From a virus: DNA of 20,429 bases. The stretch lies in the IMG/VR virus record IMGVR_UViG_3300042296_000195, positions 1-20,429 of that record; one strand, 5' to 3'. The notes under the pieces are model-generated. The model saw nothing but the letters and a program-made list of their open reading frames with translations. It searched no databases and was not told where the DNA came from. Both the position numbers and the translations under genes were made by a program. This document shows positions 69 through 11,507 of the stretch, piece after piece (the stretch's first letter is position 1; the number at the start of each line of letters is the position of its first letter).

Positions 69-106
69 TAAAACTATATTTAGCTGTTGTACTAAAATTA
101 TATTTA
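69..106. repeat. Short direct repeat TAAAAYTATATTTA, two copies
   Basis: The 14-mer at 69-82 and the one at 93-106 differ at a single position (C or T) and start 24 bp apart. The second copy overlaps the stop codon of the annealing-protein gene. The motif is AT-rich and could have arisen by chance; no function is assigned. Apart from this and the hairpin at 29-64, I see nothing in bases 1-103. Confidence 0.3.
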
Positions 107-712
107 CATGGTGCGATTCTGAATCTCCATATTTAACCATTCAAACTGACCTTTATCTAAGTCATAAAACTGATTGACCTTTTCGTGCCTGCTCAAATCC
201 TCCAGAACCCAGTCAACAATTTTATTTAATTGCTCAATACTTTCTACTTTTTTCTTTGCTGGCGCTTTCTTTAGCTGTTCACTTTTAAGTTTACTATCCT
301 GACCGTCATTGTCCACGTCAACAGAAATTTGAAGTAAGGCTGAAAGGGAATAACGCTTTGCATAAGTAATGCCACCGCCTAACTCTTGTAAGGCATTAGT
401 TCCTTTGTTTCCAGACATTGGATTAAATGGCATTTTAGAACCTATATACTGTCCAGAAACGTGGTATATAACAGTTCTCAAATAGTCGCCTGCTAAAGAC
501 TGAACTATGACTAAGTTATTTTCGCTTAGAATAGGTCTTATAACGTGCAATAAGTTGTCTAAACTTACATAGGAATTTCTTAGATGTTCATTTTTTGCAT
601 CTTTTTTAAGACTTGCATTTTGAAAAGCAATTTGGAATTTAACCATAGACTGAATTAAGTCTGTGATAGTTTGGCTTTGATAAAAATCCGCTGTTATTTC
701 TTGTGTTTGCAT
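104..712 (-). CDS. erf: ERF-family single-strand annealing protein (recombinase)
   Basis: This 202-residue protein matches the ERF family of phage recombinases, which bind single-stranded DNA, anneal complementary strands, and act in phage recombination and genome circularisation. The family core covers roughly residues 15-140. The best marker is the glycine-rich segment GGGITYAKRYSLSALLQI (residues 112-129), followed by the acidic stretch DVDNDGQD (132-139). A lysine-rich linker (about 143-156) leads to a C-terminal tail rich in charged and aromatic residues, of the kind used by annealing proteins to contact SSB or other partners; that role is inferred. The protein is about the usual length for the family. 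It is the last gene of a four-gene operon started by the promoter at 1580-1633. No exonuclease or SSB partner is visible here, but one could lie left of the window. ATG start. Confidence 0.88.
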   Translation of the reverse strand: MQTQEITADFYQSQTITDLIQSMVKFQIAFQNASLKKDAKNEHLRNSYVSLDNLLHVIRPILSENNLVIVQSLAGDYLRTVIYHVSGQYIGSKMPFNPMSGNKGTNALQELGGGITYAKRYSLSALLQISVDVDNDGQDSKLKSEQLKKAPAKKKVESIEQLNKIVDWVLEDLSRHEKVNQFYDLDKGQFEWLNMEIQNRTM

Positions 713-999: not shown

Positions 1000-1212
1000 C
1001 TAATTTAATCTATAATAATTGTTAATAAATAATTGAGTAAACTCTACTACATCCATGTTTAAAACATTTAAGGCTCTTTGAAAGTCTTCAATAAAAATAT
1101 CTTCAATGTGAATGCTATCTATTTCAAACTTTGACATATCAGTTTTTTTATTGTGTTTGCAACTTATTTGAAGCGTTACCTTAAAGCCGTTAACATAGTC
1201 TGTAATAATCAT
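1000..1212 (-). CDS. Small protein of unknown function, tandem paralogue
   Basis: A 70-residue protein of unknown function. It shares with the next gene (731-997) an N-terminal NG-hydrophobic-KVT block and a central I-x-x-I-x-(V/I)-ED-x-x-I block, with a shorter linker between them (about 14 instead of 22 residues) and a different C terminus. Its ATG overlaps the stop of the preceding gene in an ATGA arrangement (1209-1212), which implies translational coupling. The first residues MIITDYVNG follow directly from that overlap, so the start is well fixed. Confidence 0.68.
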   Translation of the reverse strand: MIITDYVNGFKVTLQISCKHNKKTDMSKFEIDSIHIEDIFIEDFQRALNVLNMDVVEFTQLFINNYYRLN

Positions 1213-1550
1213 TTTAAAAGCCAGTTTTCATATTCGTTTAAATGGTATTCATTCTCTATTCTATCCTGCTCTTCATTTAACATTATAACCTTTTGCTCTG
1301 GAGTGTAATCTGGTTCGTAGTATTTAATAAACTCTTTGCGGTCATTGTAATATTTATTCATTAGCCATTGATTAACTTCAGGCATCTCAATTGCATCGCC
1401 TACAACATAAGCATTTCTAACCTCAATCTTTGTATCGTAACAAGTAATAAAAGAATTTAAATAATCGCAGTAACAGCAAATAGAGAATTGAGCATCCAAA
1501 GCTACAAAATAAAATTTACCGTGTTCAAAAGTTCTGTTTTCGTTTAGCAT
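1209..1550 (-). CDS. Protein of unknown function, first gene of the ERF operon
   Basis: A 113-residue protein that I do not recognise. The N-terminal half is aromatic and cysteine-containing, with a CCYC cluster near residues 25-28 and further Cys at 37. The C-terminal half is strongly charged and predicted helical, rich in Glu, Asn and Tyr. It is the first gene after the promoter at 1580-1633, with the ATG 30 bases beyond the -7 box in an AT-rich leader lacking a Shine-Dalgarno site, which is normal for Bacteroidetes. Its stop overlaps the next start by four bases (ATGA). Operon position suggests an early function. Confidence 0.7.
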   Translation of the reverse strand: MLNENRTFEHGKFYFVALDAQFSICCYCDYLNSFITCYDTKIEVRNAYVVGDAIEMPEVNQWLMNKYYNDRKEFIKYYEPDYTPEQKVIMLNEEQDRIENEYHLNEYENWLLK

Positions 1551-1570: not shown

Positions 1571-1633
1571 TTGATAGGTCAAATTTAAAACCTTATATTC
1601 ACAAAACAAAACTTTTGTTATCTTTTTTTTAAT
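1571..1633 (-). promoter_or_regulatory. Bacteroidetes-type promoter with overlapping palindromic operator (copy 1)
   Basis: Read on the minus strand, the -33 box TTTG (1607-1610) and the -7 box TAAATTTG (1580-1587, consensus TAnnTTTG) are separated by exactly 19 bases, the spacing typical of Bacteroidetes housekeeping promoters. The -33 box lies inside the imperfect palindrome AACAAAA-G-TTTTGTT (1605-1619), and an A8 tract lies upstream (1623-1630), resembling an UP element. Bases 1603-1633 are identical to 11477-11507, which sit in the same relation to another good promoter. Downstream of the -7 box both copies carry CTATCAA (here 1571-1577). It drives 1550 through 104. Confidence 0.8.
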
Positions 1634-1669: not shown

Positions 1670-1696
1670 AAAAAGGATAGCCTTACGGGGCTACCC
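1670..1696 (-). terminator. Intrinsic terminator after the holin-like gene
   Basis: On the minus strand GGGTAGCC (1689-1696) pairs with GGCTATCC (1675-1682) over eight base pairs including one G-U, across the six-base loop CCGTAA, followed by five T. On the plus strand the same position would be an A-C mismatch with no T-tract, so the signal is directional. It ends the unit that includes portal, neck, fibre and holin-like genes, and insulates the early-type operon at 1550-104. Confidence 0.8.
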
Positions 1697-1725
1697 TTCA
1701 TTCATGGTCTAAAATGCAGATTGTC

Positions 1726-11164: not shown

Positions 11165-11416
11165 TTATTTACTTAACATTGATACTCCATCCCAAATCTT
11201 ATTGTTAATAGAGATTAAAATATTAACTCCATCTGTATATTTTATAACATTTTGAGTTTTTTCTAATCTTGATACTGAATTTTGCATCTCAATAATGCTA
11301 TACGGTTGTTCGTTAAAATATCTTTTGCCAAATTCTTGAGTATTTTTTAGCATTTCTAACATTTCAGTTGTTACAGTTACAACATTTAATACTTGGATTT
11401 CTTTTAAAGTTTTCAT
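11165..11416 (-). CDS. Small helical protein of unknown function under the repeated promoter
   Basis: An 83-residue protein of unknown function. Residues 14-60 are predicted helical (EMLEMLKNTQEFGKRYF, then IIEMQNSVSRLEKTQNVIKY), followed by a short beta end (GVNILISINNKIWDGVSML). It resembles small soluble regulators or inhibitors in size only; no helix-turn-helix is obvious. It is the only gene between the strong promoter at 11454-11507 and a hairpin 14 bases past its stop, so it may be a single-gene transcript expressed together with the ERF operon. Its leader is CA-rich (ACACAAAAACACACGG before the ATG). Confidence 0.62.
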   Translation of the reverse strand: MKTLKEIQVLNVVTVTTEMLEMLKNTQEFGKRYFNEQPYSIIEMQNSVSRLEKTQNVIKYTDGVNILISINNKIWDGVSMLSK

Positions 11417-11444: not shown

Positions 11445-11507
11445 TTGATAGAACAAATATATAACGACTTATTTAGAAAACAAAACTTTTGTTATCTTTT
11501 TTTTAAT
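11445..11507 (-). promoter_or_regulatory. Bacteroidetes-type promoter with overlapping palindromic operator (copy 2)
   Basis: On the minus strand the -33 box TTTG (11481-11484) and the -7 box TATATTTG (11454-11461) are 19 bases apart, an ideal Bacteroidetes promoter. The palindrome AACAAAA-G-TTTTGTT (11479-11493) covers the -33 box and an A8 tract lies upstream. Bases 11477-11507 match 1603-1633 without a difference, and CTATCAA (11445-11451) recurs just after the -7 box as in the other copy. The spacer sequences differ, so the conserved part is specific to the palindrome and upstream tract. Confidence 0.82.

Follow-up and report, generated by a model that had tools for sequence, protein, structure and literature searches.

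Repeated promoter element and the genes it precedes

The window, meaning the whole stretch of DNA analyzed here, is the 20,429-base IMG/VR virus record IMGVR_UViG_3300042296_000195. Our data confirmed that a 31-nt element pointed out in an earlier note is present in the window twice, at 1603-1633 and 11477-11507, without a single difference. In 300 simulated windows (Markov orders 2 to 4), direct repeats peaked at 13 to 19 nt and never exceeded 19 nt, so that a 31-nt repeat is well beyond chance. With its surroundings, this core forms an ungapped repeat of 83 nt at 78% identity between the two copies.

Primary-sigma promoters of Bacteroidetes consist of a -33 TTTG and a -7 TAnnTTTG, the -33 being weak in Flavobacterium johnsoniae (PMC6847099). 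Read on the minus strand, which bears the genes, each copy of the element gives A8-GAT-AACAAAAGTTTTGTT, and with it TTTG, a 19-nt spacer and TAnnTTTG. The window has two occurrences of the palindrome AACAAAAGTTTTGTT and no more, both on the minus strand (1605-1619 and 11479-11493). The proposed placement of both copies in TTTG-N19-TAnnTTTG promoters also proved right, these being the sole two such places in the window: TTTG-N18..20-TAnnTTTG is found at 1610-1580 and 11484-11454 only. By itself this promoter pattern is not unusual, 0.8 occurrences being expected by chance. The ERF recombinase operon stands behind copy 1, with the following features.

104..712, minus strand: ERF-like ssDNA-annealing protein, 202 aa (phrog_2324, E 5.9e-34)
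1209..1550, minus strand: 113-aa gene (ORF), first of the ERF operon
1571..1577, minus strand: CTATCAA, predicted initiation region of promoter 1, not invariant
1580..1587, minus strand: -7 element TAAATTTG of the ERF-operon promoter, from the pattern scan
1607..1610, minus strand: -33-like TTTG of promoter 1, within the right arm of the palindrome, variable across relatives
1612..1622, minus strand: conserved box GATAACAAAAG, copy 1, at about -47 to -37, from comparison of relatives
1623..1630, minus strand: A8 tract directly upstream of box 1, read from the sequence; at least six A's in 17/17 copies
1672..1699, minus strand: intrinsic terminator of the upstream 154-aa gene (46-nt fold, -19.1 kcal/mol, z -5.4)

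The terminator at 1672-1699 is the operon boundary just ahead of promoter 1, and a promoter of the related phage G003 is also preceded by its counterpart. The 31-nt element was itself considered as a terminator and rejected: its 31- to 37-nt folds reach -1.1 to -3.7 kcal/mol, with no clear gain over shuffled sequence, and folding against shuffles found no GC-rich stable hairpin ahead of a T tract at the element. Copy 2 lies between tail and head genes.

11165..11416, minus strand: 83-aa gene, first behind promoter 2; the slot holds other small genes in relatives
11445..11451, minus strand: CTATCAA, predicted initiation region of promoter 2, from comparison of both copies
11454..11461, minus strand: -7 element TATATTTG of promoter 2, from the pattern scan
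11481..11484, minus strand: -33-like TTTG of promoter 2, from the pattern scan
11486..11496, minus strand: conserved box GATAACAAAAG, copy 2, from comparison of relatives
11497..11504, minus strand: A8 tract directly upstream of box 2, read from the sequence

Copy 2 leads the 83-aa gene, which the earlier note had taken to be isolated; instead, it is the first of a block of small genes lying between tail and head modules. Between the window (11165-11416) and the corresponding position in L070, L072, L074 and L083, this first gene is swapped (83-aa, 72-aa and 108-aa genes), which gives the position the look of an accessory-gene slot that has a promoter of its own.

An asymmetric box in related phages

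Related contigs were gathered by IMG/VR pattern scans together with an ERF search (32 loci), and the near clade contains 17 distinct promoter copies from 11 phages. GATAACAAAAG is unchanged in 16 of the 17, the remaining one reading CATAACAAAAG, and a -7 element of the TAnnTTTG type lies upstream of a gene start in all of them (16 TTTG, 1 TTCG). Every exact GATAACAAAAG in the near-clade contigs has at least six A's before it, TT after it and a gene downstream, and its distance to TA..TT[TC]G is 23 or 24 bp throughout; among single-mismatch matches, the promoter copy of G008 has a -7 box and none of the others does. Larger contigs carry two to four copies (two each in the window, G001, G002, G010 and G011; four in G003). 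In G003, the box precedes four gene groups: the operon for ERF and replication, one of small genes located behind a RuvC-like gene, one with helicase/methyltransferase genes, and an accessory slot between tail and head genes; the capsid, portal and tail genes of this phage have no boxed promoter directly in front. The earlier suggestion that the copies are promoters of a single regulon, with a conserved binding site and a variable spacer, is supported: the same element recurs at 17 distinct promoters in 11 phages, and the further copies all precede genes and keep a fixed distance to TAnnTTTG. Among cultured relatives, the search returned just one major-capsid-like match (21.7%, Bacteroides phage BS-TP3).

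When the 21-mer AAAGATAACAAAAGTTTTGTT was compared over the 17 copies, allowing up to 4 mismatches anywhere, the first 16 columns held 1 mismatch and the last 5 columns held 19. Counted by palindrome arm, the mismatches amount to 0/119 on the left and 19/119 on the right, which rules out the palindrome as the conserved unit; the conservation of both arms characteristic of a dyad operator is not seen in the 17 copies. Right-arm and -33 variants include TTATGTA, TTTGGTA, TTATATA and TTTTCTA, and where the right arm varies, the A-tract and GATAACAAAAGTT do not. Within the right arm (TTTTGTT), T1, T2 and T6 are kept in 17/17 copies and the perfect dyad in 7/17, and several relatives lack or displace the TTTG found at -35 to -32 in both window copies. 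Both features, the right arm and this TTTG, are semi-conserved. Because the left part is nearly free of mismatches, which fall on the right, these alignments identify the conserved unit as an asymmetric box, A6-9-GATAACAAAAGTT, at about -55 to -35 (numbered as in PMC6847099) and 23 to 24 bp upstream of the -7 element. The expectation that the palindrome and A-tract would be conserved and the spacer would not thus held for the A-tract and the spacer but not for the right arm of the palindrome, and the recurrence of CTATCAA after the -7, in the same register in both window copies, extends to only 6/17 distinct copies across relatives. Loss of TTTG alone is no proof of activator dependence, since the -33 is weak in F. 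johnsoniae too (PMC6847099).

The box is specific to these phages. IMG/VR pattern scans with the 16-nt box plus the -7 element recovered this phage clade and one additional locus, L087, judged a likely chance match, and the 16-nt box gave six scattered matches in 84,980 prokaryote genomes, at other spacings or outside promoters, which we regard as chance-like. In 120 Flavobacteriaceae genomes, CAAAAGTT-N22-TAnnTTTG matched 27 times versus about 50 for the reversed control and was thus not in excess, and the longer box matched 3 times, never followed by TT. As the box is clade restricted and not in excess in Flavobacteriaceae, its reader is probably phage encoded; a host regulator is disfavored, since host genomes either lack the box or show no enrichment of it.

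A Cro-like candidate reader

Directly after ERF lies the gene for HTH67, a Cro/XRE-like protein of 67 to 68 aa; this gene is outside the window and was seen in the nearest relative. HTH67 is 84 to 100% identical across eight box-bearing phages, in which ERF goes down to 67 to 70% identity with that of the window. One clade member, G012, carries a different box at its two corresponding promoters, and this single phage is the one natural switch of box and HTH protein available. Its two syntenic promoters share TTAAAAAAAAGTTTTGTT instead, with the left half changed and the right half intact, and its HTH67 is 43 to 49% identical, with changes at most of the exposed positions in the predicted recognition helix. 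Between G012 and G011, ERF is 97% and most other genes are 85 to 100% identical. Promoter anatomy, conservation, phage specificity and, in this one phage, co-variation with the HTH gene are directly supported by our data. The sole other gene with a pattern this strong is the unrelated 154-aa holin-like gene beside the promoter, also replaced in G012, which weakens the case for HTH67. At L079 5641-6132, upstream of the ERF promoter, the holin-like gene is 35% identical to its G012 replacement, with neighbors at 87 to 97%; this replacement is a mosaic exchange adjoining the promoter.

An AlphaFold2 model of HTH67, built on 9 sequences, has four helices (pLDDT 78). Its top Foldseek matches are mostly lambda-repressor-like (XRE) proteins at a TM score of about 0.6 and E values of at least 0.1, VIA-align gives a Z of at most 6.5, and the G012 homolog matches VanU, AimR and HipB weakly. 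The fold is predicted to be lambda-repressor-like; the fold evidence for HTH67 alone is weak, and the co-variation of box and HTH protein is the stronger point.

Other observations also count against HTH67. XRE proteins usually bind dyads as dimers, and the conserved part of the box is asymmetric. Furthermore, in clades whose ERF is 52 to 57% identical, CAAAAG lies exactly 24 bp before the -7 at 6/9 occurrences in the scanned range, and HTH67 was not detected in these clades, which keep the register all the same. A second DNA-binding protein encoded downstream of ERF (196 to 249 aa) is an unlikely reader because phages with the same box have divergent versions of it, only about 42% identical. 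Searches for further HTH67 relatives gave known loci only among the IMG/VR matches listed and none in the phage collection. From the sequence comparisons we infer that a phage-encoded protein most likely binds the box, HTH67 being the best candidate for this reader.

Proposed mechanism, rival readings and wider family

We propose that, in this class of phage promoters, the host primary sigma factor would read the -7 box (TAnnTTTG), with the phage-specific A6-9-GATAACAAAAGTT box standing in for a strict -33 element and marking recombination/replication and accessory-gene operons. A phage-encoded protein, for which HTH67 is the best candidate, would bind the box beside host RNA polymerase at the -7; with HTH67 as the reader, the ERF operon would be autoregulated. 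We put at about even the chances that the box is the site of a phage regulator on host-sigma promoters, with HTH67 as the best candidate to bind it and with an activator slightly favored over a Cro-like repressor because a box centered near -41 and rigid spacing suit contact with RNA polymerase. Binding, the identity of the reader, and the sign and timing of regulation are what we infer in this proposal. More speculatively, and with distinctly less confidence, the reader may be a single-domain Cro-like activator of about 68 aa on sigma-ABfr promoters, for which the asymmetric box replaces the -33; box and recognition helix would then co-evolve, creating orthogonal regulons between phages, with nothing but the CAAAAG core kept at this register in distant clades.

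Host primary-sigma promoters of Bacteroidetes and the phage promoters share the -7 element, placed before A/C-rich leaders without a Shine-Dalgarno sequence; the host promoters lack the box, whereas the phage promoters add the invariant A-tract and GATAACAAAAGTT at a fixed distance. The nearest working analog, in organization and not by homology, is the T4 MotA box. T4 middle promoters likewise combine a host core with an asymmetric phage box at fixed spacing in the -35/-33 zone and serve replication genes, just as a phage-specific box is found here at a fixed 23/24 bp from a host core at several operons. However, the MotA box is spaced at 12 +/- 1 bp and centered at -30 (PMC2988021), while the present box is spaced at 23 to 24 bp, occupies -47 to -35 and differs in sequence. 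No MotA/AsiA homolog has been shown in the box phages, in which the candidate reader is Cro-like instead. Lambda CI at PRM acts where the box lies, and HTH67 resembles Cro/CI (XRE) regulators and restriction-modification C proteins in size, predicted fold and position in its own operon, although the box is asymmetric and the XRE-family sequence similarity of HTH67 is very weak. Neither a CI partner gene nor a lysogeny module turned up in the box phages.

The overlap of the box with the -33 also allows Cro-like repression. An HTH67 dimer on the box and a degenerate right arm would then cover the -33 and shut these early promoters down in the course of infection, making the box a repressor operator, which we hold to be possible though clearly short of an even chance. 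The partly conserved right arm, the overlap of palindrome and -33, the Cro-like size and predicted fold of HTH67 and the location of its gene inside the operon it would control all suit such an operator; the rigid 23- to 24-bp spacing to the -7 would be unnecessary for repression, and one half of the dyad varies freely, as does the -33 TTTG. Rather unlikely is a promoter without a dedicated regulator, in which the A-tract and AAAAG would act like an UP element on the alpha C-terminal domains of host RNA polymerase and drive strong constitutive early expression. A-tracts at about -55 to -48 and AAAA near -41 do resemble UP-element positions, plain A-tract plus AAGTTTTG promoters are present in G012 and in the unrelated phages L120-L122, and even the host promoters of F. 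johnsoniae show a weak -33 motif (PMC6847099). Such elements tolerate substitution, however, whereas G, T, C and G within the box are essentially invariant, and the core is not enriched at this register in hosts. An origin of the two copies by gene conversion or a recent duplication of the promoter in the phage, with no binding site under selection, would fit the 83-nt alignment of the window copies but is very improbable and largely refuted by the comparative data, with the same box at non-orthologous promoters in phages whose ERF is 30% different and with differing spacers and right arms.

Neither this box nor any class of regulated promoter in Bacteroidetes phages was described in the literature we searched. 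In these uncultured Bacteroidetes phages, a nearly invariant, phage-specific DNA tag would mark blocks of replication and accessory genes. Because the box is precisely defined, its geometry is fixed, a candidate regulator can be named and G012 offers a natural switch, the phage-regulator model is directly testable, and the box promoters could supply phage-derived regulated promoters for Flavobacterium-type hosts.

Other promoter types were seen beyond the near clade. The scan for the G012-type box returned three contigs of unrelated phages; L120, L121 and L122, from an unrelated phage group, carry near-identical TTTTTTTTAAAAAAAAGTTTTGTT...TAnnTTTG before a 42-aa gene (MKTVLTYTANIPAMPMNGLGN...). 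Two Flavobacteriales MAGs (L093, L094) carry AAAGATAACAAAAGTTT upstream of TAATTTTG at the same small gene, with a spacing of 21 and not 24. Several distant-clade phages have a repeated promoter of their own, for example, TCAAAAGCTTTTTTATT...GTAGTTC-TATCTTTG-TATCAA. In the distant ERF phages at L100-L109 (G016-G021), the form AAAATG/AAAAGC-TTTTTTTATT...GTAGTTC-TATCTTTG-TATCAA precedes two to three operons per genome, lying at 28227, 17226 and 11942 in G016. Both contig ends carry the same sequence in G016, G020 and G028, which are therefore probably complete genomes of about 33 to 38 kb.
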